NCBI GenBank assembly: GCA_018815245.1
Contig: JAHIXK010000002.1
Coordinates: 124,001-188,000 of the forward strand
Origin: Gammaproteobacteria bacterium
Lineage (GTDB): Bacteria > Pseudomonadota > Gammaproteobacteria > Burkholderiales > Burkholderiaceae_B
Direction of reading: 5' to 3'
DNA: 64,000 nucleotides
Positions 2,346 through 18,825 of this stretch are shown here, piece by piece. The first letter of the stretch is position 1. Every line of letters starts with the position of its first letter. A program made the position numbers and the translations under genes. The notes under the pieces were generated by a model, which was given only the letters and a program-made list of their open reading frames with translations, was not told where the DNA came from and searched no databases.

Positions 2346-3146
2346 ATGTTGAAAACCACCCGAAAATTTTTCCTGCTGTTTGTACTTTTATTCAGTACCA
2401 CAGGCTTTGCAGCCGATTTTGACCACAACTACAACACCTGGAATGAGTTGTTGCAAAAGCATGTGAAGTGGCTGCCAGACAACAAACAATCGCGCGTAGA
2501 CTACGCCGGCTTCCAAAAAGACCGCGAAACCCTGAAACAAGTGCTGGGCCAATGGTCTGCGGTAAGCCAAACAGAATTCAATGCATTCAGTAAAAACCAG
2601 CAAATGGCATTTTTGATCAATGCTTACAATGGTTTTACTATTGAACTGATTCTGACAAAGTACCCGAAGATCAAATCCATCAAGGAAATTGGCGGGGTGT
2701 TCAGCAGCCCTTGGAAACAGGAGTTTTTTACACTGCTGGGGAAAAAGCACCACCTGGACTGGATTGAACATGAGCAACTTCGCCCACGGTACAACGACCC
2801 CCGTGTGCACGCGGCCGTGAATTGCGCCAGCATTGGCTGCCCTGCCCTGCGCAACGAGGCATTTACTGCCACACAATTGAATGCACAACTGAACGATGGC
2901 ATGCGCCGCTTTGTGGCCGACCCCAGCCGCAACCGCGTGAAGAATGGCGAACTTCAAATCAGCCCAATTTTTAAATGGTTCGCTGAAGACTTTCAAAAAG
3001 GTCATCAAGGTTTCAAGGAAGTTAAAGATGTATTTGCAAGATGGGCAAAAGACATGAGCGATTCACCAGAAATAGTCGATAAAATCGCATCCAAATCGTT
3101 GCCAATTGCGTATAGCGATTACGACTGGTCACTCAATGACATTTAG
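2346..3146 (+). CDS. Exported DUF547 domain protein
   Basis: The product has 266 residues. A signal peptide covers residues 1-22 (LLFVLLFSTTGFAA) and a DUF547 domain fills most of the remainder. Diagnostic pieces are the DYAGF start, the NQQMAFLINAYNGFTI block and the Cys-containing NCASIGCPALR block. The biochemical role of DUF547 is not established; the Cys and His residues of the NCAS block suggest a fold of papain-like ancestry, which is inference. The stop codon overlaps the putative GTG of the next gene (TAGTG), so the pair is probably translationally coupled. Confidence 0.75.
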   Translation: MLKTTRKFFLLFVLLFSTTGFAADFDHNYNTWNELLQKHVKWLPDNKQSRVDYAGFQKDRETLKQVLGQWSAVSQTEFNAFSKNQQMAFLINAYNGFTIELILTKYPKIKSIKEIGGVFSSPWKQEFFTLLGKKHHLDWIEHEQLRPRYNDPRVHAAVNCASIGCPALRNEAFTATQLNAQLNDGMRRFVADPSRNRVKNGELQISPIFKWFAEDFQKGHQGFKEVKDVFARWAKDMSDSPEIVDKIASKSLPIAYSDYDWSLNDI

Positions 3147-4549
3147 TGAACCGCCAGAAAACTGCCCTGCTGCGAGACAATACGCCCAACATGCCACATC
3201 CAAAAACACTGCTGCTGTTCAATTACGACTGGGATGAACAAGGCGCCAAACGACTTCAGTCACATTGGCCCAGCGTGGTGTCCGGGTTTGACCTGTTCAC
3301 GTTTCCAAGCAATGCGCGCCTGCTTTGGTTTGACACTGAACGTTTTGTGGCCAAAGCCGCTGTGCTGGCCAAACTGACTGGCGCCAAAGCGGTTTCGTCC
3401 AATCACGAACAATTCGGCGCGTTGTGTGCCGCCCTGCTGGCGGAAAAAATGGGATGGCCCGGTACCCCGGTGAAGGCAATTCTGGCTTGCCAGCACAAAC
3501 TTTATGCCCGCGAGGTTCTGGAACGCGTTGCCCCTGAGGCGAATCTTCCATTTGCCCGGCTTGACGCAGCCTACGGTGGCCCCGTGCCCAATCACATTGA
3601 GTACCCGCAATTTGTAAAACCCGTGAAGGCAGCTTTCTCGGTGCTGTCCAGGCAAGTTCGAAGCGAGCATGAACTGCACGCCCACACACGCTTTGGCCCA
3701 TGGGAATTGTGGGTCATCAAGCATCTGGTTGAGCCCTTTGAACGCGTTGCCAAAAAGCGCCTGCCACAGGCGGGCACAGCCCACAGCATGTTGCTGGAAG
3801 CACCCATGCGTGGCCGCCAGTACAACCTGGATGGTTACGTGTGGCGCGGACAGGTTCGAAAGCTGGGTGTGGTGGACGAAGTGATGTACCCCAACACCGA
3901 CGCATTCATGCGCTTTGAATACCCCAGCAAACTGAACGACGCGGTACAAGATCGCGCGCACGACATTGCGCGGCGGTTTCTCGAGGCTGTCGGGTTCGAT
4001 CATGGCCTGTTCAACATGGAATTTTTCCACGATGAATCCAGCGATAAAATCACCGTGATCGAATTCAACCCGCGCATGGCCTCGCAGTTTTCTGACCTGT
4101 ATTTGCGTGTGGACGGGATTGACTTGCATGAAATTGCATTCGCCCTGGCTCACAACATGGACCCTGCCACCTTGGGCAAAACAGAACCCACTTCAGGGGC
4201 GGCTGCCAGCTTTGTGTATCGAACACTGGAACAGACTGCTGCGGTGAGCTTTCCAAATTTTCTGCAACGCAACAGCTTCTGGAAATCGTTTCCCGACGCG
4301 TTGCTGTTTGAGTACCCCAAAGACGCAAAAGAACTGCAGCGAGATTTCAAATGGTTGCGCAGCTACCGCTACGGCATCATGCACTTGGGCGGTGAAAACG
4401 CCCGCCACTTGCGCCTGCGCTGCGAACAAGCCAGCGCCATATTGGGTTGGCCAGCGCCTTATTTCGAGGATGCGCGGGAAATGACCGCAGACACAATTCC
4501 AGATTCTGTGGAACTGTTTCCGTGCGCGCAGGTCAGTTCACCGACGTGA
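3146..4549 (+). CDS. ATP-grasp domain protein
   Basis: An N-terminal Rossmann-like part (TLLLFNYDWDEQGAKRL) is followed by an ATP-grasp fold. The segments PQFVKPVKAAFSVLS (lysine of the nucleotide site), NLDGYVWRG and ITVIEFNPRMASQF (metal-binding Glu and Asn) are typical. Such enzymes make an acyl phosphate and join it to an amine or thiol, but the substrate here cannot be told. The GTG overlaps the upstream DUF547 stop. An ATG at 3191 starts directly before the Rossmann strand and is an equally good start. Neither has a convincing ribosome-binding site. The downstream neighbour is a YHS lipoprotein. Confidence 0.7.
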   Translation: MNRQKTALLRDNTPNMPHPKTLLLFNYDWDEQGAKRLQSHWPSVVSGFDLFTFPSNARLLWFDTERFVAKAAVLAKLTGAKAVSSNHEQFGALCAALLAEKMGWPGTPVKAILACQHKLYAREVLERVAPEANLPFARLDAAYGGPVPNHIEYPQFVKPVKAAFSVLSRQVRSEHELHAHTRFGPWELWVIKHLVEPFERVAKKRLPQAGTAHSMLLEAPMRGRQYNLDGYVWRGQVRKLGVVDEVMYPNTDAFMRFEYPSKLNDAVQDRAHDIARRFLEAVGFDHGLFNMEFFHDESSDKITVIEFNPRMASQFSDLYLRVDGIDLHEIAFALAHNMDPATLGKTEPTSGAAASFVYRTLEQTAAVSFPNFLQRNSFWKSFPDALLFEYPKDAKELQRDFKWLRSYRYGIMHLGGENARHLRLRCEQASAILGWPAPYFEDAREMTADTIPDSVELFPCAQVSSPT

Positions 4550-4569
4550 ATCAATTTTAGTACAGGAGA

Positions 4570-5175
4570 ATGGTTTTGAGATTTTTACCCACACACAAAC
4601 TACTGATCGCGGGCAGTTTGATTATTGGTCTGAGCGGCTGCGGCGCGATGACCGCCCAAAACCCGGCCAGCGACCTAAGCCCGGTCAACGCAGCAGAAAT
4701 GGAAGGCGCGGATCGCTTGATGCTGTTTGGTGCGGACGTGGTGGCTTACTTCACGCAAAATGCTTACGTGCAGGGAAACGCCCTGTACGCCAGCAAGTAT
4801 CAGGATGTAGACTTTCACTTCTCCAGCGCAGAACACAAAGCGATGTTTGATGCGGAACCTGAAAAATTCCTGCCCCAGTACGGTGGCTACTGCGCCAACG
4901 GCATCATGTTTGGCATCCCATGGGGCGGCAATGCCAGCGACTTCAAAATGGTCGACGGCAAGCTGTATATCTTTGGTGGTGAAGTGTCACAAGCGGCTTT
5001 TGAACTGGAACTGGAAAAGAATATCGCCCTGGCTGATAAATACTGGGAACAGGAAGTGAAAGGCAACAACAGTTTTATTCAGCGTGCCAAACGCCTGGTG
5101 GTGCGGGTGCCGCATTACAAGAGCGGCGAGGAACAAGCTGCCGAGGTTCAGGCAGCAGGAAAAACAGGAAGCTGA
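4570..5175 (+). CDS. YHS domain lipoprotein
   Basis: The 201-residue product has a lipoprotein signal with a lipobox ending in C24 (IGLSGCG). It then carries a YHS-like domain: GADVVAYFTQ, the paired DVDFHFSSAEHKAMFDAEPE block and the PQYGGYCANGI block. Members of this group are periplasmic proteins, some thought to bind metals. The AGGAG at 4564-4568 is only one base from the ATG but lies 7 nt before an in-frame TTG at 4576, so that TTG may be the true start. The gene is last on the plus strand before the convergent transporter operon. Confidence 0.7.
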   Translation: MVLRFLPTHKLLIAGSLIIGLSGCGAMTAQNPASDLSPVNAAEMEGADRLMLFGADVVAYFTQNAYVQGNALYASKYQDVDFHFSSAEHKAMFDAEPEKFLPQYGGYCANGIMFGIPWGGNASDFKMVDGKLYIFGGEVSQAAFELELEKNIALADKYWEQEVKGNNSFIQRAKRLVVRVPHYKSGEEQAAEVQAAGKTGS

Positions 5176-5208: not shown

Positions 5209-6033
5209 TTAATTCATCAATCTGGTTCGGCTGAAGTAACTGAGCACATCCACCAACGCCACCAATATCATCATCGACAACAGCACGGTGCTGGTTTCGG
5301 CCATCTGGAACAGCCCCATGTGGTAAGACAACATTTGCCCCAATCCGCCTGCGCCAACCACACCCAGCACAGCGGCTGCGCGAATGTTGTTTTCCCAGCG
5401 GTACAAGGTGTAGCTTATTAATTGCGGCAACACTTGCGGAAATGTGGCGTACCAAAACACCGCCACAGAACCCACCCCCCGTGCGCGCAAGGCGAAGGCG
5501 GGTTGGTCGGTCGCATTTTCGATGCTTTCCGCAAACAGACGCCCCAACACCCCCGTGGTGTGCAAAGCCAATGCGAAAGTACCTGCAAATGGCCCCAGCC
5601 CGACGGCGATCAGCAACAAGGCTGCCCACACCAATTCAGGAATGCTGCGCAACACATTCAACACGCCGCGGCTTAAAGTGCGCCAACGCGCGGGGTCTTC
5701 AGCATAGGTTTTGCTGGCGGGCAAGGCCCACAGCAAACCAAATATGACCGCCAGCAAAGTGCCCAATGCGGACATGGCCAGGGTTTCAACCGTAGCCCAT
5801 GCCACTTTGGCAACAAATGCCGGTTCAAAATTCGGGGTCAGCAGCTCGCCGATGAATTTGCCCATGCGGGCCATTGCATCCATGGATGCAAAACGCTCCC
5901 ACTGCAAATCAAGGCTCCAGAAGCTTAGAACCACCAACACAAGCAAGCCAAATACCATCCAGCAAGATTTGCAACGCGCATCAAAAATAGGCGCAGGCAG
6001 TTTAGGGGCAGAATCATTCATGGGTTTGCTCAT
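5209..6033 (-). CDS. PhnE-type ABC transporter permease 2
   Basis: An inner-membrane permease of the phosphonate/phosphite/selenate superfamily. It has several membrane helices and the cytoplasmic coupling segment near GVVGAGGLGQMLSYHM, which matches the EAA-like loop of PhnE proteins. The ATG at 6033 overlaps the TGA of the preceding permease gene (ATGA) and has GGAG 9 nt upstream, so it is preferred over a TTG at 6054. It is the last gene of a four-gene operon and pairs with the first permease to form the channel. The substrate is judged from the binding protein, not from this gene. Confidence 0.85.
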   Translation of the reverse strand: MSKPMNDSAPKLPAPIFDARCKSCWMVFGLLVLVVLSFWSLDLQWERFASMDAMARMGKFIGELLTPNFEPAFVAKVAWATVETLAMSALGTLLAVIFGLLWALPASKTYAEDPARWRTLSRGVLNVLRSIPELVWAALLLIAVGLGPFAGTFALALHTTGVLGRLFAESIENATDQPAFALRARGVGSVAVFWYATFPQVLPQLISYTLYRWENNIRAAAVLGVVGAGGLGQMLSYHMGLFQMAETSTVLLSMMILVALVDVLSYFSRTRLMN

Positions 6034-6872
6034 GCCAGTGCGCTCCGCAACCAACTGCTGACACGGTCAGCAAGCCAGACCAGAAATACGAACACCAGCA
6101 ACATGGTACCCACTTCGCCACCCGCAAACATTTTCATTGAGGAATCCAGTTGTTGGCCCAAACCACCTGCGCCAACAAACCCCAATACAGCCGAAGACCG
6201 AATGGCGCATTCCCACCGGTACACGGTGTAGCTGGCCAATTCCGCCGCATTCTGAGGCAATGCACCATAAAAAAAGGCCTGCAAACGACCACTGCCATTG
6301 CGCAGCAAATTCTGCGACACATGGACGTCTCCCGATTCCAGAATGTCAGCATACACTTTGCCCAACATACCGCCGTAGGTCAGTGCAATGGCCAACACTC
6401 CCGAAGTGGGGCCCAGGCCGACCACCCGCACAAACACCAGCGCCCAGATCAATTCAGGCACACTACGCAGCACAATAGCCACCCAACGCACCAGCTGACG
6501 AAGCACCGAGGGCAAAGGGGCCATGCGACCAGAAATGGCGGAAATGGAAATGACACGCACCGACAACAATGCAATAGGAACAGCAAGCAGCCAGGCCAGG
6601 GCCAAGCCCGCGGTGGCAATGGCCACTGTGCGCCATGCCTCTTTGGCCACCATGGTCAAAAACTCAGGATCAGTTTTCGGGGGAACCATGTCGCCCAGAA
6701 AGTTCAGTGTTGGGCGCAGGTTGTCTTCGTCCAGCAATATCCAGGGACGAAACTCGGTGAGCTGAAACATCGGCCACACCAACACAATGGCAGCCAAAAA
6801 CCAGAACACCCGCATGGACCACGCCGGGTCCCGCAGGGCGGGGGTTTTGCTGCTTGCAGACACGCTACTCAT
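6030..6872 (-). CDS. PhnE-type ABC transporter permease 1
   Basis: A 280-residue permease homologous to the next gene. It shows the same coupling loop (GFVGAGGLGQQLDSSM) and the RSVPELIWALVFVRVVGLG segment seen in both copies, so the two probably arose by duplication and form a heterodimeric channel. It is preceded by the ATPase gene with a 4-nt gap and overlaps the following permease by 4 nt. Operons of this superfamily often carry two permease genes. No C-P lyase or phosphonatase gene is present nearby, which argues against a dedicated phosphonate role. Confidence 0.85.
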   Translation of the reverse strand: MSSVSASSKTPALRDPAWSMRVFWFLAAIVLVWPMFQLTEFRPWILLDEDNLRPTLNFLGDMVPPKTDPEFLTMVAKEAWRTVAIATAGLALAWLLAVPIALLSVRVISISAISGRMAPLPSVLRQLVRWVAIVLRSVPELIWALVFVRVVGLGPTSGVLAIALTYGGMLGKVYADILESGDVHVSQNLLRNGSGRLQAFFYGALPQNAAELASYTVYRWECAIRSSAVLGFVGAGGLGQQLDSSMKMFAGGEVGTMLLVFVFLVWLADRVSSWLRSALA

Positions 6873-6876
6873 CAGT

Positions 6877-7707
6877 TCACCTGCAATTCATCGCCACTGG
6901 TGCGGGTTTGTTCTGAGTGGGTGGGCGTTCCGGCGCGGGGCCAGTCAGCTCGTCCAGGTGCTGGGCGTACAGATCGACCAGCCGTTGTTCGGTCACTTCG
7001 CTGGCGGGCAGATCGAAGACCACTTCGCCGTCACGCAGACCAATAATTCTCGGAAAGTGCTTCAACGCCATGTCCACCTGGTGCAGTGTGGAAATCAGGG
7101 TAGCCCCTTGCTCCCGGGCAACCTCGGCCAGTGTTTGCATGGCTTGTTCCGCCCGCGCGGGGTCTAAAGCCGACAAAGGTTCATCCACCAAAAACATGTT
7201 TGCGCCCGACACCAAACCGCGAGCCAGGCCAACCCGCTGACGCTCGCCACCGGAAAGCCGGTCAACCCGCTCGAACAACTTTTCTGACAAATCAAAACGC
7301 GCCAGCGCTGCGTGCGCTGCACCCGTGTCAATCGGATAAAACAAACTTCGCAGGCTGGTCCACAAGCCCATGTGCGGCAGCTTGCCTGCCAACACCGCGG
7401 TGACCACGCGTTGCCGTGGGGGCAAAGGTGGAACCTGGGGTGCCAAAAACAAATTGCGGCGCACATTGCGAAGCCCGCGTTTGTTCAAGCTCCAGGGGTT
7501 GGTGTGGTCAAGCAGCACCTTGCCCGCAACCGGCTCAAGCGCGCAGGCCAACAGGTGCAACAAAGTTGTTTTACCGGCCCCAGAGGGGCCGATGATGGCG
7601 ACCTGCTCGCCCGCCTGCACTGAAAAACTAACGTTCTTCAGTGCAGGCGGCGTGTCGCGGCCAGCCGCCGGATGGCGGCCAGCAATTTGCTGCAGTTCAA
7701 TGATCAC
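6877..7707 (-). CDS. PhnC-type ABC transporter ATP-binding protein
   Basis: A 276-residue ABC ATPase. It shows Walker A GPSGAGKTT, the signature LSGGERQRVGLARGL, Walker B with MFLVDEPLSALDP, and the switch His in STLHQVDMAL. The length and the YAQHLDELT tail fit PhnC-like subunits. The ATG overlaps the stop of the binding-protein gene (ATGA). It should energise the two following permeases. The name refers to the superfamily only; the transported oxyanion is inferred from the binding protein and the nearby selenium genes. Confidence 0.88.
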   Translation of the reverse strand: MIIELQQIAGRHPAAGRDTPPALKNVSFSVQAGEQVAIIGPSGAGKTTLLHLLACALEPVAGKVLLDHTNPWSLNKRGLRNVRRNLFLAPQVPPLPPRQRVVTAVLAGKLPHMGLWTSLRSLFYPIDTGAAHAALARFDLSEKLFERVDRLSGGERQRVGLARGLVSGANMFLVDEPLSALDPARAEQAMQTLAEVAREQGATLISTLHQVDMALKHFPRIIGLRDGEVVFDLPASEVTEQRLVDLYAQHLDELTGPAPERPPTQNKPAPVAMNCR

Positions 7708-8573
7708 TTCAGCAGACCCGCCGCACGTGCAGCACTTTCAATGCCGGCATAGTTGTCCACCTTGGTGGGAATGAATTTTGTTGCGCGTTGCAATTCAAGA
7801 ATTTCCTTGCCTTGGGGCGTTGACGGGTCCAGCGCCAGGAAAGCATCCACAATCTTCTTGCGGGTTTCCGCTGGCACGCCGCTGTGTACGGTCCAGTTGT
7901 AATCGTAATACGCCGGGGTGGTGTAAATCACGCGCACCTTGGCAGGGTCTACTTTTTTATCTGCCACAAACTTTTCCCACACGGAAATATTCAATGCGCC
8001 TGCATCCACTTTACCTGCGGCCACCGCGGCAATGGTGGCATCGTGTGCGCCGGAAAACGACACGCGTTTGAAATCCTTGTCCGGGTCAATTTTGGCCACG
8101 GTGTTCAAGTAGCTACGGGGCATCAAGTGCCCGGAAGTGCTGGAAGGTGAACCAAAGGCGACGCTTTTGCCTTTGAGATCGCTTAAGGCCTTTACTTTGG
8201 GATTGTTGGTGATGAAGACCGATTTGAATTGTTCGTCTTCAGCACGCTGAATTAGCGGGATTACCTGGCCATTGGAGCGTACATTGGCCTGAACAAACGT
8301 GAAGCCGCCAAACCAGGCCATGTCCACTTGCTTGTTCGCCAGCGCTTCGACAGAGGCGGCGTAATCCGTTACGGGGGTGTACTCGACTTTCATGCCAAGC
8401 TTGTCAGAAAGGTATTTCATCAAAGGAGCGGCCTTGCGGGCCAATTCGGTGGGTGATTCGTCCGGTATGGCGGTGACTCTGAACACTTGTTCCGCGTGCG
8501 CTAAACCGGCCAAACCGATCATGGCGCAAGTCATCAGACACTTGAATGTACGGGAGGGTGAAAAGCTGATCAT
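7704..8573 (-). CDS. Periplasmic binding protein, putative selenate/phosphonate-type ABC transporter
   Basis: The 289-residue product has a Sec signal peptide ending near GLAHAEQ and then a PhnD-superfamily binding domain. Several segments (FRVTAIPDESPTELARK, AWFGGFTFVQA, FGSPSSTSGHLMPRSY, VSFSGAHDATIAAVAAGKVD, YYDYNWTVHSG, TKFIPTKVDNYAGIE) match my recollection of the clade annotated as putative selenate-binding proteins, which is found near selD. It leads the operon, with AAGGAG before the ATG. Upstream and divergent is egtD, and senB and selD lie a few kb away. Binding of selenate or selenite is an inference; phosphate, phosphite or phosphonate cannot be excluded by eye. Confidence 0.75.
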   Translation of the reverse strand: MISFSPSRTFKCLMTCAMIGLAGLAHAEQVFRVTAIPDESPTELARKAAPLMKYLSDKLGMKVEYTPVTDYAASVEALANKQVDMAWFGGFTFVQANVRSNGQVIPLIQRAEDEQFKSVFITNNPKVKALSDLKGKSVAFGSPSSTSGHLMPRSYLNTVAKIDPDKDFKRVSFSGAHDATIAAVAAGKVDAGALNISVWEKFVADKKVDPAKVRVIYTTPAYYDYNWTVHSGVPAETRKKIVDAFLALDPSTPQGKEILELQRATKFIPTKVDNYAGIESAARAAGLLK

Positions 8574-8711
8574 TTTAAACTCCTTGTTGATTAAAACACC
8601 GCCGCCGCATGGCAGAAATTTCAGTATAGGTTAGAAAATAAGGCACAATCCTTGTATAGACTCGAGGCGGCTTTTTGATTACTGCCCACTTCATTATTAC
8701 ACTGACGAAAT

Positions 8712-9683
8712 ATGACACCCACCCCACAGTTCATCCAGATTTATCAAGGCCAGGCCGCGCACATTCGCGAAGAATTGCTCAGCGGGTTGAGCTCCAGCAA
8801 GGCGCACACCTCGCCGAAGTACCTGTACGACGAACTGGGTTCGAAATTATTCGAAGCCATCACCTGCATTCCCGAGTATTACCCCACCCGCACTGAAGCA
8901 CTTGTTTTCAGCGTGCATGGCCACGACATGGCCAAACACGTACCCACCGGGTCGGCGTTCATCGACCTGGGGGCGGGCAACTGCGAAAAGGCAGCAAAAC
9001 TGTTCAATGTGTTTCACCCAACGCGATACATTGCAGTGGACATTTCCGTGGATTTTCTGAAAGGTGCGCTGGAATGTTTGCAACGCCAGTTTCCAGCGCT
9101 GGAAATGGCGGGCGTGGGCATGGACTTTTCCAGTGAACTGAGCCTGCCTGCCAGCCTGGCCCTTCACCCGGCGCAACCACGGGTCATGTTTTACCCCGGT
9201 TCCAGCATTGGCAACTTCACGCCCGAAGAGGCACTGCTGTTTTTGAAGCAGGTGCACGGCGTGTGTTCAGGCGCAAATGGTGGCGGCTTGTTGATCGGTG
9301 TTGACCTTGTGAAAAGCAAGGCTGTGCTGGAAGCTGCTTACGACGATGCCCTTGGCGTAACAGCCGCGTTTAACCGCAACATGCTGCTGCATTTCAACAC
9401 ACTTGCGGGCACCAACTTCAAACTGGAAGACTGGAAACACATTGGCCTGTACAACACCGAACTGAATCGCATTGAAATGCACCTTGAGGCGCTTCGGGAT
9501 GTGGTGGTGACCTGGGACGGCGGCGAGCGCCAGTTTGTGGAGGGCGAGCGCATTCACACCGAGAATTCCTACAAGTGGACGCTGACCGGGTTTGAAGATT
9601 TGCTGAAACGGGCAGGGTTTGTGGTGTGCAAGGCGTACACCGACCCGGAGCAGAAATTTGCGGTGTTTTGGGCGCAGGCTTGA
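8712..9683 (+). CDS. egtD: L-histidine N-alpha-methyltransferase (EgtD family)
   Basis: The enzyme trimethylates histidine to hercynine with S-adenosylmethionine, the first step of ergothioneine and selenoneine synthesis. The 323-residue length is usual for the family. Seen are the N-terminal SSSKAHTSPKYLYDELG block with ITCIPEYYPTRTE, the SAM motif FIDLGAGNCEKA, FYPGSSIGNFTPEEA and the substrate-side YNTELNRIEMHL region. No egtB, egtC, ovoA or senA is adjacent, so the hercynine-using enzyme must lie elsewhere. The gene is divergent from the selenate-type transporter operon. The intergenic space (8574-8711) presumably holds both promoters. Confidence 0.88.
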   Translation: MTPTPQFIQIYQGQAAHIREELLSGLSSSKAHTSPKYLYDELGSKLFEAITCIPEYYPTRTEALVFSVHGHDMAKHVPTGSAFIDLGAGNCEKAAKLFNVFHPTRYIAVDISVDFLKGALECLQRQFPALEMAGVGMDFSSELSLPASLALHPAQPRVMFYPGSSIGNFTPEEALLFLKQVHGVCSGANGGGLLIGVDLVKSKAVLEAAYDDALGVTAAFNRNMLLHFNTLAGTNFKLEDWKHIGLYNTELNRIEMHLEALRDVVVTWDGGERQFVEGERIHTENSYKWTLTGFEDLLKRAGFVVCKAYTDPEQKFAVFWAQA

Positions 9684-9714
9684 CAGTAGTGGCCCGGCAA
9701 AACTGAACAGTTGA

Positions 9715-9978
9715 GATAAGTACCGATTTGGATCAGCACCCAAAGCCGGAGAACTGGCGCTGTACTTTATTCGCTGCTATCGCGCCTTGTACGCGCTGAT
9801 GGGTGGAGATCAGGACAACATGCGCCACTGGATTAAAACAGCCAACAGTCATTTGGGTGATGCCAGGAGAGCGTGGCCACAAACGAAATTGTTGACACCC
9901 AATTTTCAGCGGATTTACAAGCTGATCGCGCTGTGTTGCTCAACAACCCGAAGTTTGACCACATTCAATCGCGCTTAA
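9715..9978 (+). pseudogene. Remnant of Xre/MbcA/ParS-type antitoxin (C-terminal domain only)
   Basis: The frame opens after a stop at 9712 and has no proper start codon. About 45 residues, including LYALMGGDQDNMRHWIK and TANSHLG, resemble the toxin-binding C-terminal domain (DUF2384 type) of antitoxins that pair with RES toxins. The similarity fades after the HLG at about 9858, where the family would continue with a proline and a helix; what follows looks random. The RES remnant starts 15 bp further on in another frame. A deletion joining the two genes explains this best. The antitoxin lacks its helix-turn-helix half and should be dead. Confidence 0.55.
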
Positions 9979-10268
9979 GGCACTTAAGTGATTACACCTT
10001 CACCCAGCAATTGGGTTCCCACATGCGTGCAGTGGGTGTTCAGGCATTTCTTTTCTACTCCGCCAGAGACCCGGACAACGGTCTTAATGCAGGTGTATTC
10101 GATCCTTCTTGTTTTACAGGGCAAGAGCCTCGGGGAGAAAGGGAATGGTTTTGCCAGGTTGATCAGTCTGCCGATGAAATCACTTTTTACTGCCCCGCCA
10201 CAAAGCAAAGTGCGCAGTTTTCTGCCGGCTTGTACCGCGTGAACGGGGTGCTGCCAAAGCCAGCGTAA
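9873..10268 (+). pseudogene. Remnant of RES-domain toxin (C-terminal part)
   Basis: The 131-residue frame begins at a GTG with GGAG just upstream. It matches only the C-terminal half of RES-family NAD-degrading toxins, including LQADRAVLLNNPKFDHIQ, LSDYTFTQQLGSHMRAVG, FLFYSARDPDNGLNAGVFDP and REWFCQV. The N-terminal half, with the Arg-rich NAD-site segment, is absent; the frame has a stop at 9858. A full RES toxin has roughly 200 or more residues. It lies behind an equally truncated antitoxin, the normal order of the pair. It is probably inactive, though the fragment could still be translated. Confidence 0.6.
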
Positions 10269-10283
10269 AGAGGAGTTGTTTCT

Positions 10284-10477
10284 AACCCAATCGGCAGCGA
10301 TGTTCCAATCGCTTCGCCTTCAAGAAAACCTGCCCGTTTGAATTCACACGCCACGTGCGGCCGCAGGCCGACAATTCGCTCGACCTTCAGTTTTGCCGAG
10401 CGAATTGAGTCAGTGTGAATTTCAAAAAGGGAACAACAGGTTTTCAGGCGAGGCATTGGGATTCGCGCCGATTGGGC
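10284..10477. repeat. Nested palindromic interspersed repeat, copy A
   Basis: A ~195-bp element whose two ends are imperfect inverted repeats. The left side carries CCCAATCGGC, CTTCAAGAAAACCTGCCCG and TTTGAATTCACAC; the right side carries their complements in reverse order. The centre is a second hairpin with 10-bp arms AATTCGCTCG and CGAGCGAATT around a CTTCAGTTTTGC-like loop. The architecture and the AAGAAAACC core are shared with copies at 15876-16070 and 40851-41050. It fills the gap between the RES remnant and the methyltransferase stop. This is the most diverged copy. Confidence 0.8.
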
Positions 10478-10499
10478 CATAAACCGGTGCGCTAGCAAT

Positions 10500-11693
10500 T
10501 CACACCGCAGCCAGTCGCCACAAGCTGGTCACTTCCTTGCACCGTGCATCAAACAGCGCATCACTGGCATCAAAGGCTTTGCCGTGTTTGGGCTTGGCAT
10601 CGATTCGGGCAAGCACTTTCAAACCAGCCAACTCGATCCAGCCCAGCAATTCTTCCCGCGTACGCAGTTTCAGGTGTTCGGCCAAATCAGACAATATCAG
10701 CCAGCCTTCGCCCCCCTTATTCAAGTGGGCAGCCAAGCCCGCCAAAAACGCTTTCAGCATGCCGCTGTTTTCATCGTAAATGGCACGTTCAATCGGTGAA
10801 GTGGGCTTGCCCGGCAACCAGGGCGGGTTGCACACAATCAAGTCGGCTTTGCTTTCTGGAAATAGATCGGCTTGCACCACAGTCACCTGTTTGACCATGC
10901 CAAGATTTTGAATATTGAACTGTGCACATTCCAGTGCGCGTGGGTCATTGTCCGTGGCCACAATATTGCTCAGCCAGCGTTGCGCCAATACAGCGGCCAA
11001 CACACCGGTGCCCGTGCCCACATCAACCGCTGAACCATTTACCTCGCAGGCTTTGGGCATGGGCGCTTTCAACACCAAATCCACGTACTCGCCACGCACC
11101 GGCGAAAACACGCCGTAATAAGGGTGTATGCGGTTGTTGGGCGGGTCGCCAAGTGCGGAAACCTCGACCCCTTTTTTGCGCCATTCATAAGCGCCCACCA
11201 CACCCATCATTTCACGCAGCGAGGTCACGATCATCGGGCCATCCACTTGCGGCTCGCCCCAAGCCTCGGAGCACGCGGCCAACACATCGGGTGCGCGGCG
11301 CAGCGGAATGCTGTAATCGGCGTTAAAAGGAATCAGGATTGAACCCAGAATGCGCGCTCGCTGGGCCTGGCCTTGGCGGTACAGGTGGAATCTTTGTGGG
11401 TACTCCACATCGGCTTTTCCGGACTTGGCTGCTTTGCTTTTCTTGTGCTCCGCGTTTTTGTCCACACGGCGCACCAAGGCCTGCATCAGTTGGCGGGCGT
11501 TTTGAAAGTCGCTTTGCCACAGAAACACCGTGCCTTCGCAAGCCAGGCGATAGGCCATGTCGGCCGTTAGCGTGTCGTCGGCCAGCATCACCTTGCCCGG
11601 TACAGCCAGGTTCCGTTCTGATTGCCAGCGCGCACTGAAGGTTTCATCGCCCTTGGTCCATTGAATTACAGGGCTTTCGTCGGCTGGGTGCAT
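10500..11693 (-). CDS. Class I SAM-dependent methyltransferase, NPPW motif
   Basis: The start is taken as the ATG giving MHPADESPVIQW; the frame stays open for 30 codons upstream without a better signal. The product has about 397 residues, with an N-terminal region of unknown role and a C-terminal methyltransferase fold of the 'small' type: VDVGTGTGVLAAVLAQRW, ATDNDPRALE and LIVCNPPWLPGKP. An NPP(W/Y) motif marks enzymes that methylate amide or amino nitrogen in protein, rRNA or DNA, as in PrmC, RsmC and RlmG. The exact substrate is not recognisable. It is divergent from the senB-like gene, sharing a ~110-bp promoter region. Confidence 0.75.
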   Translation of the reverse strand: MHPADESPVIQWTKGDETFSARWQSERNLAVPGKVMLADDTLTADMAYRLACEGTVFLWQSDFQNARQLMQALVRRVDKNAEHKKSKAAKSGKADVEYPQRFHLYRQGQAQRARILGSILIPFNADYSIPLRRAPDVLAACSEAWGEPQVDGPMIVTSLREMMGVVGAYEWRKKGVEVSALGDPPNNRIHPYYGVFSPVRGEYVDLVLKAPMPKACEVNGSAVDVGTGTGVLAAVLAQRWLSNIVATDNDPRALECAQFNIQNLGMVKQVTVVQADLFPESKADLIVCNPPWLPGKPTSPIERAIYDENSGMLKAFLAGLAAHLNKGGEGWLILSDLAEHLKLRTREELLGWIELAGLKVLARIDAKPKHGKAFDASDALFDARCKEVTSLWRLAAV

Positions 11694-11810
11694 GCGTGTT
11701 CTCGCGGTGAAGGGCGGGTTGGATCGTGTAAACTGCTTAAGGCTCGCAGTGTACCACCTTGGGTGGTTTACACCCCGAACCATCCTGTATCAATTAGAGT
11801 GGCTGTTGTC

Positions 11811-12866
11811 TTGATTAAACCATCGATTGTCATTGTAAGCCCTGCCCTGGCCGACTCCAACAACGGCAACTGGCAAACCGCTCGCCGCTGGCAGCAATTC
11901 CTGTCTGAATTCTTCAATGTGCGCATTGTGAAACACTGGGAAAACACGCCCGCAACACAAAGTGATGTAGCCATGGTTGCACTTCACGCGCGGCGTTCTG
12001 CTGATTCCATTGCTGCCTGGGCACAAAGCCGCGGCATGGAGGGCCAGGGAAGCCCCGGCCTGATACTGGCGCTGACCGGCACCGACTTGTACCGCGACAT
12101 TGAAACCGATGAAACCGCACAGAAGTCGCTTGAGTTGGCTCGGCATTTAATCGTATTGCAAGAAAAAGGGGCGGAGAAGCTCAGCGAGGCCCTACAGGCA
12201 AAAACATCTGTGATTTTTCAGTCCACTACTTCGCGCAAAACCCTTGCCAAACCCAAACGCCGCCTGAAGGTGGTGATGGTGGGCCACCTGCGCGATGAAA
12301 AAATGCCCCAAACCCTGATGGAAGCCGCAGTGCTGCTGCGCGGTTATGGCGACATATACATCGACCACATTGGCGGGCCTTTAGACCCTGAGCTGGCACA
12401 GGCGGCCGAAGAAACCATGCAGGCGTGCCCCAACTACCGCTGGCTGGGCAACCAGCCACACGGCGCCACCCGCACACGCATTCAACGCGCCCATGTGCTG
12501 GTGCATGCCAGCAAAATGGAAGGCGGGGCCCATGTGATCATGGAGGCAGTGTGCAGCGGCACACCCGTGGTGGCCAGCTACATTGATGGCAACATCGGCA
12601 TGCTGGGTGCAGGCTACCCCGGCTACTTCCCCTTGGGCAATTCCCACGCGCTGGCCAATGTGCTTACACAATTGCAGGAAGACATTGTGAATCCGAAACC
12701 CCTGCCACCGGGTAAGGTTAATCTGTACACCAAACTGAAAAACCAATGCGCGGAGCGGGCGAAACTGTTTGCCCCGGAAAACGAACAAAACGAATTAATT
12801 CGACTCGTACAACGAGCTGCCAAGAACAACAACACTGAAGTAGAAGTACATCATGCAAACATCTGA
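11811..12866 (+). CDS. senB: SenB-like selenosugar synthase (TIGR04348-type glycosyltransferase)
   Basis: A GT4-like glycosyltransferase of about 351 residues. The SIVIVSPALADSNNGN start, the VVMVGHLRDEKMP phosphate-site block and the ASKMEGGAHVIMEA donor-site block match the TIGR04348 group. SenB of that group was shown in the selenoneine pathway to make a selenosugar from UDP-sugar and selenophosphate. The next gene encodes the selenophosphate synthase and overlaps by 14 bp, which fits. The TTG at 11811 is chosen because the conserved start follows at once; a GTG at 11799 is possible. No senA follows. Confidence 0.78.
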   Translation: MIKPSIVIVSPALADSNNGNWQTARRWQQFLSEFFNVRIVKHWENTPATQSDVAMVALHARRSADSIAAWAQSRGMEGQGSPGLILALTGTDLYRDIETDETAQKSLELARHLIVLQEKGAEKLSEALQAKTSVIFQSTTSRKTLAKPKRRLKVVMVGHLRDEKMPQTLMEAAVLLRGYGDIYIDHIGGPLDPELAQAAEETMQACPNYRWLGNQPHGATRTRIQRAHVLVHASKMEGGAHVIMEAVCSGTPVVASYIDGNIGMLGAGYPGYFPLGNSHALANVLTQLQEDIVNPKPLPPGKVNLYTKLKNQCAERAKLFAPENEQNELIRLVQRAAKNNNTEVEVHHANI

Positions 12867-15150
12867 CCAACCCATCCTTCGTGACATTGTGCTGGTAGGC
12901 GGCGGCCACAGCCATGTGGGTGTGCTGCGCATGTTTGGCATGAAGCCTTGGCCCGGCGTGCGCTTAACGCTGATTTGTACTGACATTCACACCCCCTATT
13001 CCGGCATGCTGCCGGGCTACATTGCCGGCCACTACAGCTACGACGATGTGCACATCGACCTGGGTCGTCTGTGTGCTTTTGCGGGTGCCCGTTTGTTTAA
13101 GGACGAGGTGGTTGGCATTGACCGCGCCAATCAAAAAGTAATTTGCAAGAACCGCCCGCCCGTGGCCTACGATGCGCTTTCCATCAACATTGGCAGCACC
13201 CCACAGGTTCAACTGGTGCCCGGCGCCTTGGAACACGCAGTGCCAGTCAAACCCATTGCGAAGTTCAATGAACGCTGGGTGAATTTGCTGGATCGTGTGA
13301 AAACCCACGCAGGCAAAACCACCATTGCGGTGGTGGGTGGCGGCGCAGGTGGCGTTGAACTGGCCTTGGCCATGCAGTTTCGCTTGCGCAATGAATTAAG
13401 CGCCATGGGGCGCAATCCCGATGAACTTGAGTTTCACTTGTTCACGGCCGATGCCGATGTGTTGCCCACCCACAACCCAGGTGTGCGCACACGATTCGAG
13501 AAAGTATTGAATGAACGTGGCGTGGTGCTTCACCGCGACGCGGAAGTGGTGCAACTTGATGGCCACACCCTGCAAACCAAGCAGGGTGAACGCCTGCACG
13601 CCGATGAAATTATGTGGGTGACGCAAGCTGGTGGCGCGGCTTGGCTTGGAAATAGCGATCTTGAACTGGATTCACGCGGCTTCATCAACGTGGGCCCTAC
13701 CCTGCAAACCACGCGCGATCCTAAAATTTTTGCTGCAGGCGACATTGCCAACTTGACCAGCACACCGCTTGAAAAAGCAGGCGTGTTCGCTGTGCGCATG
13801 GGCAAGCCACTGACCAAGAACCTGCACCTGTTTGTGCAAGGGGCCGACCTGCTGGAATACCGCCCACAAAAAACCTGGCTGGCCTTGATCAGCACAGGCG
13901 ACAAATACGCGGTGGCATCCAAGGGGTCGCTCGGCTTTGCCGGCGCGTGGGTTTGGCAGTGGAAAGACTGGATTGATCGCCGCTTCATGGCGAAATTCAG
14001 CGAATTTCCCGATATGGCCAATAAGATGGACCCCAATGCAAAACCCGCTGGTGGCAACACACCGAATTTGGCATTGACGCAGGAAGAAAGCCTGCAGGCC
14101 ATTTCCGCCATTGCCATGCGCTGCGGTGGTTGTGGCGCCAAGGTGGGCTCCACAGTTTTATCTCGCGCACTTGGTAACCTAAAGCCCGTTGATCGCGAAG
14201 ATGTATTGGTGGGCCTGCATGCCCCCGATGATGCCGCGATTGTGAAAGTACCAACTGGCAAAGCCATGGTGCACACCGTCGACTTTTTCCGGGCGTTTGT
14301 TGACGACCCTTATATTTTCGGCAAGGTTGCAGCCAACCATGCACTGGGTGATGTGTTCGCCATGGGTGGTGAAGCGCAATCGGCTACCGCCGTGGTGACC
14401 GTGCCGCCGGGGCTGGAATCGAAAGTAGAGGAATTGCTGTTCCAGATGATGAGCGGTGCAGTGGAAGTATTGAACGAAGCAGGATGCGCCCTGGTGGGCG
14501 GGCACACCGGTGAAGGCCGTGAACTGGCACTGGGTTTTGCCATCAACGGCTTGGTGGATGAAAACCTGGACGGCGTGATGATTAAGGGCGGCATGCGCCC
14601 CGGCGATGCGATTTTGCTGACCAAACCGATTGGAACTGGAACATTGTTCGCCGCCCTGCCGCAATTGAAAACCAAAGGTCGCTGGATAGATGCGGCACTG
14701 GAATCAATGGTGATCAGCAACCGCTTGGGTGCAAAGTGCCTTCGGGAATTCGGATCAAAAGCCTGCACCGACCTGACAGGTTTTGGTTTGCTGGGCCACC
14801 TGGTGGAAATGACACGCCCCTCAGAAGTGGATGCAGAACTTGATTTAAGCGCCCTACCCCTGTTGGATGGCGCGCTTGAGATGGTCAGCGCTGGCATTGT
14901 GAGTTCGCTGCAACCCGCCAACGTGCGCTTGCGCCGCGCCATTCGCAACCAGGCTGATTACGTGAATGACCCGCGCTACCCGCTGATATTCGACCCGCAA
15001 ACTGCAGGCGGTTTATTGGCCACAGTACCCGGCGACAAGGCGCAAGCCTGTGTGGCTGCATTGCAGAAACTGGGTTACGAACACACCGCGATTATTGGCC
15101 GCATATTGCCGCAGGGCAACGCGATTGAGCCGATTGTATTGAAAGGCTAA
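12853..15150 (+). CDS. selD: Selenide, water dikinase fused to an NDH-like FAD/NAD(P) oxidoreductase
   Basis: The product is a 765-residue two-part protein. Residues ~10-390 form a pyridine-nucleotide-disulfide/NDH-2-like domain with IVLVGGGHSHVGVLRMFG, VVGGGAGGVELALA and the FAD-binding FAAGDIANL. Residues ~415-765 form SelD, which makes selenophosphate from selenide and ATP. The active-site segment is RCGGCGAK with C424 and C427 (Cys, not selenocysteine), followed by PDDAAIV and a C-terminal FDPQTAGGLL. This fusion is known from other proteobacteria and cyanobacteria; the oxidoreductase may supply reduced selenium, which is inference. It overlaps senB and is followed 9 bp later by a VTT gene. 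Confidence 0.92.
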   Translation: MQTSDQPILRDIVLVGGGHSHVGVLRMFGMKPWPGVRLTLICTDIHTPYSGMLPGYIAGHYSYDDVHIDLGRLCAFAGARLFKDEVVGIDRANQKVICKNRPPVAYDALSINIGSTPQVQLVPGALEHAVPVKPIAKFNERWVNLLDRVKTHAGKTTIAVVGGGAGGVELALAMQFRLRNELSAMGRNPDELEFHLFTADADVLPTHNPGVRTRFEKVLNERGVVLHRDAEVVQLDGHTLQTKQGERLHADEIMWVTQAGGAAWLGNSDLELDSRGFINVGPTLQTTRDPKIFAAGDIANLTSTPLEKAGVFAVRMGKPLTKNLHLFVQGADLLEYRPQKTWLALISTGDKYAVASKGSLGFAGAWVWQWKDWIDRRFMAKFSEFPDMANKMDPNAKPAGGNTPNLALTQEESLQAISAIAMRCGGCGAKVGSTVLSRALGNLKPVDREDVLVGLHAPDDAAIVKVPTGKAMVHTVDFFRAFVDDPYIFGKVAANHALGDVFAMGGEAQSATAVVTVPPGLESKVEELLFQMMSGAVEVLNEAGCALVGGHTGEGRELALGFAINGLVDENLDGVMIKGGMRPGDAILLTKPIGTGTLFAALPQLKTKGRWIDAALESMVISNRLGAKCLREFGSKACTDLTGFGLLGHLVEMTRPSEVDAELDLSALPLLDGALEMVSAGIVSSLQPANVRLRRAIRNQADYVNDPRYPLIFDPQTAGGLLATVPGDKAQACVAALQKLGYEHTAIIGRILPQGNAIEPIVLKG

Positions 15151-15159
15151 GGAAGTACC

Positions 15160-15849
15160 ATGCCGTTTGCTGTACAACAACACTGGAAGAAAACAGCCTT
15201 GCTGCTGCTGGCGGCGGTGTTGTGCGTCATTTGGCTTGGCATGGATGTGTCACTTCAAGACATGCTGGCGGCTCAACGCGAATTGGCCATGCATTTCATG
15301 GACCACCCCACCTTGGTCACCCTGATTTATTTTCTGGTGTTTCTGGTATTGACCGCCCTGTGCCTGCCCGGTGCAGGGGTGCTGATGCTTGTGGGTGGCG
15401 GCTGCATGGGCTTTGGCCTGTGCATGGTAGTTTCCACCGCAGCATCGGCCTTCGGCGCTTTGCTGACCATGCTGTTTGCCAGGCACTTCTTTCGAGATTC
15501 GGTGGAAAGCCGGTTTGCAAACAAGTTAAGCGATATCAACAAAGGCATTGAGAAAAACGAAGTGGTGTATCTACTTAGCCTGCGGTTGGCCCCGGTAATT
15601 CCATTCGTTGCATTCAACTTGCTGGCAGGCCTAACGCGCGTACAGCCATGGACCTTCCTGTGGACCAGCTTCCTTGGCATGCTGCCCGGCACCATGCTGT
15701 ACGTGAATGCGGGCAATGAACTGGCCAAGGTGAACCGGCTGGAAGAACTGATCTCGCTGGAAGTGGTGATCTCGCTGGCTGCACTGGCTTTGGTGCCGTT
15801 CCTGATTCAATGGGGCGCGCGGCAGTTTCAACTACGCAGGGTGGCGTAG
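15160..15849 (+). CDS. VTT domain (TVP38/TMEM64, DedA-like) membrane protein
   Basis: The 229-residue integral membrane protein has about five to six hydrophobic segments. It carries the VTT-domain marks: LCLPGAGVLMLVGGGCMGFG, a charged FARHFFRDSV loop and the LRLAPVIPFVAFNLLAG re-entrant segment, ending with GMLPGTMLYVNAGNEL. VTT proteins are thought to move lipids or small anions; a DedA relative has been linked to selenite uptake in Cupriavidus. Lying 9 bp behind selD, it is surely cotranscribed, so a role in selenium entry or export is a fair guess but unproven. Confidence 0.8.
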   Translation: MPFAVQQHWKKTALLLLAAVLCVIWLGMDVSLQDMLAAQRELAMHFMDHPTLVTLIYFLVFLVLTALCLPGAGVLMLVGGGCMGFGLCMVVSTAASAFGALLTMLFARHFFRDSVESRFANKLSDINKGIEKNEVVYLLSLRLAPVIPFVAFNLLAGLTRVQPWTFLWTSFLGMLPGTMLYVNAGNELAKVNRLEELISLEVVISLAALALVPFLIQWGARQFQLRRVA

Positions 15850-16553: not shown

Positions 16554-16997
16554 TCAATAGGTTTTATACGGCAAAAATTTACCGCTCATGTTGATGCTGA
16601 CGCGGTCGCCCATGGGGTTGGGTTCGCGCTGCAAATCCATCTTGAAGTCGATTGCGCTCATAATTCCGTCGCCAAACTCTTCGTGAATCAATTCCTTGAA
16701 GGTGGTGCCGTACACGCTGATCAACTCGTAAAATCGATAAATCAGCGGGTCTGTAGGCACAGCGGTGGGCAGTGATCCCTTGTAAGGCACCACTTGCAAG
16801 CAATCTACTGCCTCGGGTGGCAATGCCAAATACTCGCCAATCTTCTTGGCCTGCTCTTCAGTCAAGGTCATTTGGCCCAGCAGTGCTGCCGTGCTCCATT
16901 CCTTGGACTGACCCAGTACCTTGGCGCAGTCGTCCCAAGTGCATTTTTTCTTGCGCTTGGCCAATACAATCATTTCGGTTACGTCGGTTCGTTTCAT
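16554..16997 (-). CDS. cynS: Cyanate hydratase (cyanase)
   Basis: Cyanase converts cyanate and bicarbonate to ammonia and carbon dioxide. The 147-residue product has an N-terminal helical domain (WDDCAKVLGQSKEW) and the conserved catalytic domain. R88 in PLIYRFYEL, E91 and S114 in GIMSAIDF correspond to the known Arg-Glu-Ser catalytic set. The C-terminus MSGKFLPYKTY is typical of the family. The start overlaps the ATPase stop by 4 nt, making it the last gene of the uptake operon. It probably serves detoxification and nitrogen supply. Confidence 0.96.
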   Translation of the reverse strand: MKRTDVTEMIVLAKRKKKCTWDDCAKVLGQSKEWSTAALLGQMTLTEEQAKKIGEYLALPPEAVDCLQVVPYKGSLPTAVPTDPLIYRFYELISVYGTTFKELIHEEFGDGIMSAIDFKMDLQREPNPMGDRVSINMSGKFLPYKTY

Positions 16998-17965
16998 GGT
17001 GCACTCCTTTGAATCAAATTAAGTGGGGGTGTTGTTTCGGTGTTGGCCAGGGCTTTCAAGCCGGGGCGAACCACGGTGGGTTGTTTGTGCAATTCAGCGT
17101 TCAACTTGTTGCCATCGGGTTCCGTTGATGGTGCAGGTGCTGCCCGGTTCACCAGAAAATCAACCAGGTGGTTGCGAATGGCGTAGTACTGGGGGTCGTG
17201 GTGCACGGTGCTGCGGGTGCGTTCACGCGGCATGGTGTTTTCAACAATTTCTGCAATGCGGGCACGCGGGCCGTGGCTCATCAGCATCACTTTGTCGGCC
17301 AGCAAAATGGATTCATCCACATCGTGGGTAATCATGAACACGGTTTGCCCGGTGGCCTTCACGATTTGCAGCAACTCGTCTTGAATGGTGCCGCGCGTTA
17401 GCGCATCCAACGCACCGAAAGGTTCATCAAGCAACAGCATTTGCGGCTGAATGGCAAATGCACGGGCAATGCCCACACGCTGCTTCATGCCGCCTGAAAG
17501 TTCATGCGGTTTTTTGTGCGCTGCTTTGCCCAAGCCCACCATGTCCAGGTACTTCATGGCATGTTCACTGATTTCCTCGGGCGACTTGTTCGGCCAGCGT
17601 GAACGCACACCAAACTCCACGTTTTTCAGCGCTGTCATCCAGGGCATTAGCGCGTGGCTTTGAAACACCACACCACGGTCCAGCGAGGGGCCAACCACCT
17701 CCCTGCCGTTCATGATCACGTAGCCTTGGGTGGCTTCATCCAGCCCGGCCAGAATGTTCAGAATGGTGCTTTTGCCGCAGCCTGAATGGCCGATGATGCA
17801 TACAAACTCGCCTTTCTGAATGTCAAAGTTCACCGCTTCGAATACGGGTGGCACATTTGAATCTTCTGGCGCATAGCTTTTTACCAAACCCTCTACTTGC
17901 AAGAAGGCAGCTGCTTTTTCGGTGGGCACCAGGTCTTTGCTGAAAATCTTGTGTTCAGTCGTCAT
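16994..17965 (-). CDS. Nitrate/cyanate-type ABC transporter ATP-binding protein (NrtD/CynD-like)
   Basis: A 323-residue ABC ATPase with Walker A GHSGCGKST, signature ELSGGMKQRVGIARAF, Walker B MLLLDEPFGALDAL and switch His MITHDVDESILLADKV, all typical of the nitrate/taurine/cyanate group. A tail of about 60 residues after the ATPase core is low in motifs and of unknown role. It lies 6 bp after the permease and overlaps cynS by 4 nt. The direct link to cynS argues for cyanate as the substrate rather than nitrate; no nitrate reductase gene is seen. Confidence 0.9.
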   Translation of the reverse strand: MTTEHKIFSKDLVPTEKAAAFLQVEGLVKSYAPEDSNVPPVFEAVNFDIQKGEFVCIIGHSGCGKSTILNILAGLDEATQGYVIMNGREVVGPSLDRGVVFQSHALMPWMTALKNVEFGVRSRWPNKSPEEISEHAMKYLDMVGLGKAAHKKPHELSGGMKQRVGIARAFAIQPQMLLLDEPFGALDALTRGTIQDELLQIVKATGQTVFMITHDVDESILLADKVMLMSHGPRARIAEIVENTMPRERTRSTVHHDPQYYAIRNHLVDFLVNRAAPAPSTEPDGNKLNAELHKQPTVVRPGLKALANTETTPPLNLIQRSAP

Positions 17966-17971
17966 TTTTGT

Positions 17972-18820: not shown

Positions 18821-18825
18821 GCCGC

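Follow-up and report, generated by a model that had tools for sequence, protein, structure and literature searches.

A candidate selenite importer adjoins selenosugar genes in a genome assigned to Limnobacter

The stretch of DNA analysed here (the window) is 64,000 nucleotides long and corresponds to positions 124001–188000 of contig C9 in a 3.22-Mb gammaproteobacterial genome of 17 contigs (GCA_018815245.1), the source genus of which is taken to be Limnobacter. Between positions 5209 and 15849 of the window, the genes of an ATP-binding cassette (ABC) transporter of the PhnCDE type adjoin egtD, senB and a selD fusion. We think it probable that this locus is a selenium assimilation module, leading from selenite import to selenosugar within a variant of the sen cluster; the substrate, the direction of transport and the products are deduced from family membership, synteny and phylogeny, which could be established directly.

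Families were assigned by profile searches (NCBIfam/TIGR and Pfam) of the open reading frames (ORFs) of the window, using curated cut-offs. The periplasmic binding protein (7704–8573, minus strand), which we propose to be a selenite binder, matches TIGR04553 over its full length at 403.5 bits (cut-off of 250), versus 178 bits for the PhnD family TIGR03431 (under the cut-off of 261), in keeping with the resemblance to a putative selenate clade reported in a first-pass annotation of the same DNA. Its gene runs leftward from 8573 together with those for a PhnC-type ABC ATPase (6877–7707, minus strand; TIGR02315, 208 bits, below the cut-off of 266; PF00005) and two PhnE-type ABC permeases (6030–6872, minus strand; TIGR01097, 200 bits, just below the cut-off of 217; PF00528; and 5209–6054, minus strand; TIGR01097, 260 bits). 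Across a divergent intergenic region that was read from the sequence (8574–8711), egtD starts 138 bases away on the opposite strand (8712–9683, plus strand). It encodes the histidine N-alpha-methyltransferase that forms hercynine (TIGR03438, 350 bits, cut-off of 291), and a hercynine source for selenoneine is therefore present. Further along the plus strand, the selenosugar synthase gene senB (11799–12866; TIGR04348, 461 bits, cut-off of 300), a gene that fuses a flavin/NAD-type oxidoreductase to SelD (12853–15150; TIGR03169, 530 bits, cut-off of 310; TIGR00476, 289 bits, cut-off of 125) and a gene for a predicted VTT/DedA membrane protein (15160–15849; PF09335, 76 bits, and synteny in the genus) follow one another in the same direction, almost without gaps. 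The five proteins named in the first-pass annotation, plus the ATPase and the two permeases, were all recovered at the coordinates that it had listed, and its EgtD, SenB-like and SelD families all pass curated cut-offs.

The listed senB ORF opens at 11622 and homology to SenB begins at residue 69; the true start is therefore probably GTG 11799 or TTG 11811. SenB matches the solved Se-glycosyltransferase 8k5u at 374 bits and keeps the EGGAHV motif, which is described in a portion of PMC10891094. The fusion protein, the only SelD match in its genome (E ≤ 1e-35), would provide the SelD/SenC function that the selenoneine pathway requires, and its SelD half aligns to the solved SelD 3u0o (159 bits). 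The GGCGAKV stretch of the fusion aligns with the N-terminal Cys/Lys stretch of 3u0o, which we take to be catalytic.

SenA, EgtB and OvoA have the FGE-sulfatase fold in common, and two proteins encoded elsewhere in the genome match the SenA model NF041186 (cut-off of 420). The predicted SenA on contig C13 (422.5 bits) has selenoneine synthase 8ryz as its best solved match (317 bits), carries the motif HPYVDYSKPWF/YRNYF and groups in the tree with SenA, apart from OvsA and from a group labelled EgtB. The protein on contig C5 (420.3 bits) was rejected as SenA on the basis of its best solved match, its motifs and its place in the tree, all of which are those of OvsA: it matches OvsA 8u41 at 558 bits over 432 residues, as against 185 bits for SenA, carries DMYPFMSTLQF/YRQAY and is followed by an OvoA-type methyltransferase (TIGR04345, 297.5 bits). 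The ovoselenol pathway set (OvsA with its motifs and the methyltransferase) is thus present and unlinked to senB, which suggests that SenB supplies selenoneine and ovoselenol alike. Of 30 loci examined for the OvsA motif, 9 carry it; every one of the 9 belongs to the genus, and 7 have the methyltransferase within about 1.5 kb (not G002 and G014); G006 has the methyltransferase and lacks the exact OvsA motif. An OvsA search of 300 genomes of the order (the order sample) matched 15, including 13 outside the genus at 39–46% identity; several of these matches are beside SenB and are probably SenA. Because no match outside the genus exceeds 46% identity, yet OvsA 8u41 is matched at 558 bits, the OvsA-like protein and OvoA-type methyltransferase at L039:6497–8581 suggest a transferred ovoselenol pair.

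MnmH is encoded in the same genome (330 bits). The search of the genome that the first-pass annotation had proposed therefore found senA and mnmH; no SelB scores over the cut-off (best TIGR00475 match of 112 bits, cut-off of 242), and selA and selC were not searched. Two other PhnD-superfamily proteins are present. The first, on contig C1 (TIGR04553, 82 bits; PhnD, 160 bits, cut-off of 261), is about 4 kb from the C–P lyase protein PhnJ, with apparent ATPase and permease genes between them, as read from the ORF list. The second, on contig C4 (TIGR04553, 165 bits), is preceded by an ATPase-like ORF and followed shortly by a dehydrogenase; from its position we presume the set to be PtxB/PtxD-like, and the NCBIfam matches of the dehydrogenase are hydroxyacid dehydrogenases, all below cut-off. 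Given one such protein near PhnJ and one adjacent to a PtxD-like gene, phosphonate and probably phosphite have candidate importers elsewhere in the genome, which leaves the transporter adjoining the selenium genes as the third of the PhnD superfamily. No phosphite oxidation gene beside the transporter was found among the window proteins scanned, and no genome-wide ptxD search was made.

We compared 40 genomes (this one and 39 relatives), 19 of which have SenB over the cut-off. SenB is present in 13 same-genus relatives (in G004 it is split over two frames and below the cut-off); no SenB reaches the cut-off in G001 (85% complete) or G010 (65% complete). The transporter adjoins egtD in all 13 and is inside the 20-kb stretch of senB in 11 (it is 17 kb and 14 kb from senB in G002 and G015, respectively), so the grouping of transporter, egtD and senB is conserved in every SenB-bearing relative of the genus. 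Across the 40 genomes, 14 of 18 TIGR04553 proteins over the cut-off are within 20 kb of SenB, whereas none of the 33 relatives that score below the cut-off in SenB-bearing genomes is so placed (there are 43 below-cut-off relatives in all). These 14 are not independent, because all are in one genus, and the 7 SenB loci examined outside the genus have no such binding protein within the stretch. The assignment to Limnobacter rests on the locus of Limnobacter humi (L172), which matches the window in layout and has senA inside the cluster; the binding protein of L. humi shares 86% identity with that of the window and is identical to that of G014, a same-genus relative. In L062 (G004), L046 (G002) and L047 (G013), senB, the SelD fusion or the VTT gene is in two tblastn pieces, possibly owing to frameshifts or assembly errors.

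The position of senA varies within the genus: it is in the cluster and divergent from senB in G014, G015 and G003, and elsewhere in the window's genome, G002, G009 and G012. Seven Limnobacter SenA rows form one group in the tree (support of 89, not starred). With a support of 99, the tree places the four unlinked copies together with the one in the G015 cluster, and senA has therefore most likely moved within the genus; replacement by transfer is less likely on the same evidence. The transporter occurs as two types, both of which pass TIGR04553. Type A, divergent from egtD, is present in the window, G013, G014, G003 and G015, and type B, co-directional with egtD, in nine other Limnobacter genomes; both types have egtD on one side and the YHS/ATP-grasp genes on the other (the stretches of G003 and G015 gave no YHS match). 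A single clade of types A and B is rejected (p-AU = 2.7 × 10−54), and type B is sister to a protein of G071, from another family (support of 97). The trees thus indicate that the transporter has been replaced in place by another TIGR04553 lineage, and the retention of the same kind of transporter through this replacement argues for function rather than descent.

In the order sample, TIGR04553 is over the cut-off in 66 genomes, SenB is matched in 90 (87 over the cut-off) and SelD in 215. Genomes with TIGR04553 include 37 with SenB and 60 with SelD. Cross-tabulation of TIGR04553 and SenB over the 215 SelD genomes (34/26/53/102; Fisher P = 0.003) is descriptive only, as the genomes are related. 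Nine of the 37 have the binding protein and SenB no more than 20 kb apart (G000, G003, G071, G098, G123, G199, G289, G300 and G318); the last seven are outside the genus and belong to families f49, f31, f9, f7 and f22. SelD is beside all seven of these loci and EgtD beside five, in varying gene order. We also analysed 80 named loci, which are the best relatives of the window's binding protein rather than a random set; two of them, L171 (= G013) and L172 (= G014), are Limnobacter genomes that also figure in the counts above. Within the flank, SenB occurs at 38 of these, SelD at 51, EgtD at 32 and SenA at 28, with all four at 15; oxidoreductase–SelD fusions occur at 7. As the transporter adjoins SelD and MnmH without SenB in G080, G191 and 6 of the 80 named loci, selenium is the shared theme. 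No binding protein appears at 7 of 25 loci in a neighbour listing. Overall, the grouping of the transporter with selenium genes is not due to chance.

SelD has one in-frame TGA in at least four genomes (G027, G112, G152 and G313) and may be a selenocysteine-containing SelD. SenA-like proteins beside egtD in Oxalobacteraceae clusters were considered as SenA or OvsA and rejected, as they form a separate 16-row group in the tree. We take this group to be EgtB, a label that draws on how the proteins score and, where the sequence was displayed, on the GEYNGKF motif. At L135, L137, L204, L209 and similar Oxalobacteraceae loci, the EgtB-labelled enzyme adjoins egtD, which suggests that ergothioneine and selenoneine are made from one locus.

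Selenite has three oxygens in a pyramidal arrangement and a lone pair in the position of the phosphite hydrogen; for this reason, and on chemical grounds, the pocket of the binding protein should fit pyramidal selenite better than selenate. The solved chains nearest to the binding protein are picocyanobacterial PhnD1 (7s6g, 189 bits; 5lq5, 153 bits). Residues I36, D38, Y71, S145, T146, S147, H177, N195, D224 and Y225 of the window protein were compared with I11, D13, Y46, S126, T127, S128, H158, N176, D205 and Y206 of Pm_PhnD, taken from a section of PMC5700983. In an alignment of 129 family members (including the window, and some genomes twice under different loci), this ten-residue pocket is identical in 108; of the others, 18 read IEYSTSHDNY, 2 have a change at N176 and 1 (L150, G225) is without the STS motif. 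A set of 24 positions that are near-invariant across the 129 compared proteins differs from both PhnD1. Sections of PMC5700983 report that a Pm_PhnD-type pocket binds phosphite at 50–240 nM, and phosphate and methylphosphonate at tens of micromolar or weaker, that a tyrosine caps the P–H side of phosphite and that the capping-tyrosine pocket disfavours four-oxygen phosphate in Pm_PhnD and PtxB. Synechococcus WH8102 and MITS9220 have PhnD1 and do not grow on phosphite, and the authors of PMC10284923 call the phosphite affinity fortuitous. The stem ‘selen’ was not found in the main text of the published binding-protein work searched for it.

We propose that a selenium oxyanion enters through the PhnCDE-type transporter; selenite is the most likely one, and the TIGR04553 binding protein would offer it a small capped trioxoanion pocket. 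Selenite would be converted to selenide by general cellular reductants, possibly with help from the oxidoreductase half of the fusion; the SelD half would make selenophosphate, which SenB would combine with a UDP-sugar to form the selenosugar. EgtD would convert histidine to hercynine, from which, with the selenosugar, the unlinked SenA would form selenoneine. The OvsA-like protein and the OvoA-type methyltransferase probably use the same selenosugar for ovoselenol, and selenophosphate would also supply MnmH for tRNA selenouridine. The first-pass proposal of a single programme that begins with selenium uptake and ends in a small selenium metabolite is thus supported: the order is kept in the genus and recurs in other families, and SenA and mnmH are in the genome. 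A broader proposition, which we offer tentatively and consider doubtful, is that TIGR04553/PhnD1 is a selenite importer family, that the phosphite-type trioxoanion pocket is used in nature for pyramidal selenite and that the Limnobacter importer feeds one selenosugar pool branching to selenoneine and ovoselenol. If this were true, the phosphite affinity of picocyanobacterial PhnD1 would be a by-product of selenite binding.

Several observations weigh against a selenium assimilation module. At the thresholds used, 29 of the 66 TIGR04553 genomes of the order sample have no SenB match and 6 have no SelD match, one of which (G225) is a single contig. In 4 of the 18 genomes with an over-cut-off protein in the 40-genome comparison, no SenB lies within 20 kb of the transporter, and 27 of the 80 named loci have none of SenB, SelD, SenA and MnmH in the flank (which is under 15 kb in 6 of the 27). 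The fusion matches TIGR04369, ‘fusion_not_SelD’, at 453.5 bits (cut-off of 700), above its TIGR00476 score; we kept it as SelD because mnmH, which needs selenophosphate, is in the genome. The NF041186 scores of SenA and the OvsA-like protein are only just at the cut-off (417.8 and 420.0 bits for the matched stretch alone). Two solved binders of phosphite/phosphate exceed the TIGR04553 cut-off (5lq5, 302 bits; 7s6g, 337 bits), phosphite-binding PhnD1 fall among TIGR04553 proteins in the tree, on a long branch, and all ten compared pocket residues are identical to those of phosphite-specific Pm_PhnD (the capping tyrosine plus STS-H). The model is therefore not specific to selenium, and TIGR04553 membership alone was discarded as proof of selenium transport; as the sequence does not separate the protein from phosphite binders, the selenium case for the transporter rests on its neighbourhood. 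The first-pass annotation had held that grouping with phosphite binders would count against it: model, tree place and pocket bear out such a grouping in part, and the neighbourhood is still one of selenium genes. Automatic use of the ‘putative selenate’ name, which takes in characterised picocyanobacterial binders, may mislabel genes.

The shared model and pocket, together with the nanomolar phosphite binding reported in part of PMC5700983, are what a PhnD1-type phosphite/phosphate importer lying next to selenium genes by accident would show. We regard such an accident as quite unlikely, as several families and two transporter lineages show the same co-location, other PhnD-superfamily proteins of the same genome are beside the PtxD-like dehydrogenase and near PhnJ, and a scan of one neighbour at each of 10 loci that lack nearby selenium genes found no phosphite or phosphonate gene. 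Transport of selenate, which would be reduced to selenite inside the cell, agrees with the TIGR04553 family name; it is unlikely, given that the name denotes a hypothetical equivalog, that the capping-tyrosine pocket disfavours four-oxygen phosphate and that no selenate reductase was found among the window proteins scanned (a genome-wide search for one was not made). Selenate is thus not supported over selenite. The unlinked transporters at 27 named loci, and the co-conservation of YHS, DUF547 and ATP-grasp genes in the genus, would suit plain synteny by descent with no joint function and a transporter for sulfite or another oxyanion. In-place replacement by another TIGR04553 lineage and the changing gene arrangement across families make this explanation very unlikely.

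Other genes at the locus are less widely shared. The first-pass annotation had included the VTT protein in the programme; its gene follows senB–selD in 12 of 13 genus relatives and is present at only 3 of the 80 named loci, two of them Limnobacter, so that its part in the programme is putative. DedA proteins are presumably linked with selenite. A class I S-adenosylmethionine-dependent methyltransferase (10500–11783, minus strand; PF05175), PrmC-like and possibly a bystander, is likewise at 3 of the 80, two of them Limnobacter; both proteins are mostly genus-specific. The region between egtD and this gene (9700–10268) looks like a truncated toxin–antitoxin remnant, with a RES-domain fragment (9873–10268; PF08808, 32 bits) and, before it, a short stretch that we take to resemble an MbcA/Xre-type antitoxin tail. 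DUF547, ATP-grasp and YHS (seleno)protein-domain genes (2346–5175) adjoin the transporter in most of the genus; the YHS and ATP-grasp genes are each at 7 of the 80 named loci, two of them Limnobacter. Cyanase and a nitrate-type ABC transporter (16554–20187) lie directly downstream and are kept in the genus.

The sen pathway, OvsA and the TIGR04553 annotation are already known. Our searches of open-licence PMC papers listed no description of this transporter with sen genes, and according to a 2026 review (PMC13188914) prokaryotes have yet to yield a specific, high-affinity system for selenium transport. The locus and its relatives are a concrete candidate for a bacterial selenium transporter, with selenite predicted rather than selenate, and they warn that the TIGR04553 family name alone is not evidence of selenium transport: the window protein is a full-length member of a putative selenate family of hypothetical function, and its nearest solved chains, picocyanobacterial PhnD1 (5lq5 and 7s6g), have the same compared pocket residues. 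In Limnobacter, a single selenosugar supply probably serves the synthesis of two selenium antioxidants. The C5 protein resembles OvsA 8u41 of the ovoselenol pathway in its DMYPFMSTLQF and YRQAY motifs and in the OvoA-type methyltransferase alongside, but the pair is unlinked to senB and its product is predicted from sequence. As in the sen cluster of Variovorax paradoxus (senA, senB and senC), SenB and SelD are adjacent, SenA and hercynine are needed, and solved SenB and SenA are the top sequence matches among solved structures. The window's genome has, by contrast, senA on another contig and a SelD that forms one protein with an oxidoreductase. In the window, senB–selD is also accompanied by egtD and the genes of an ABC transporter.

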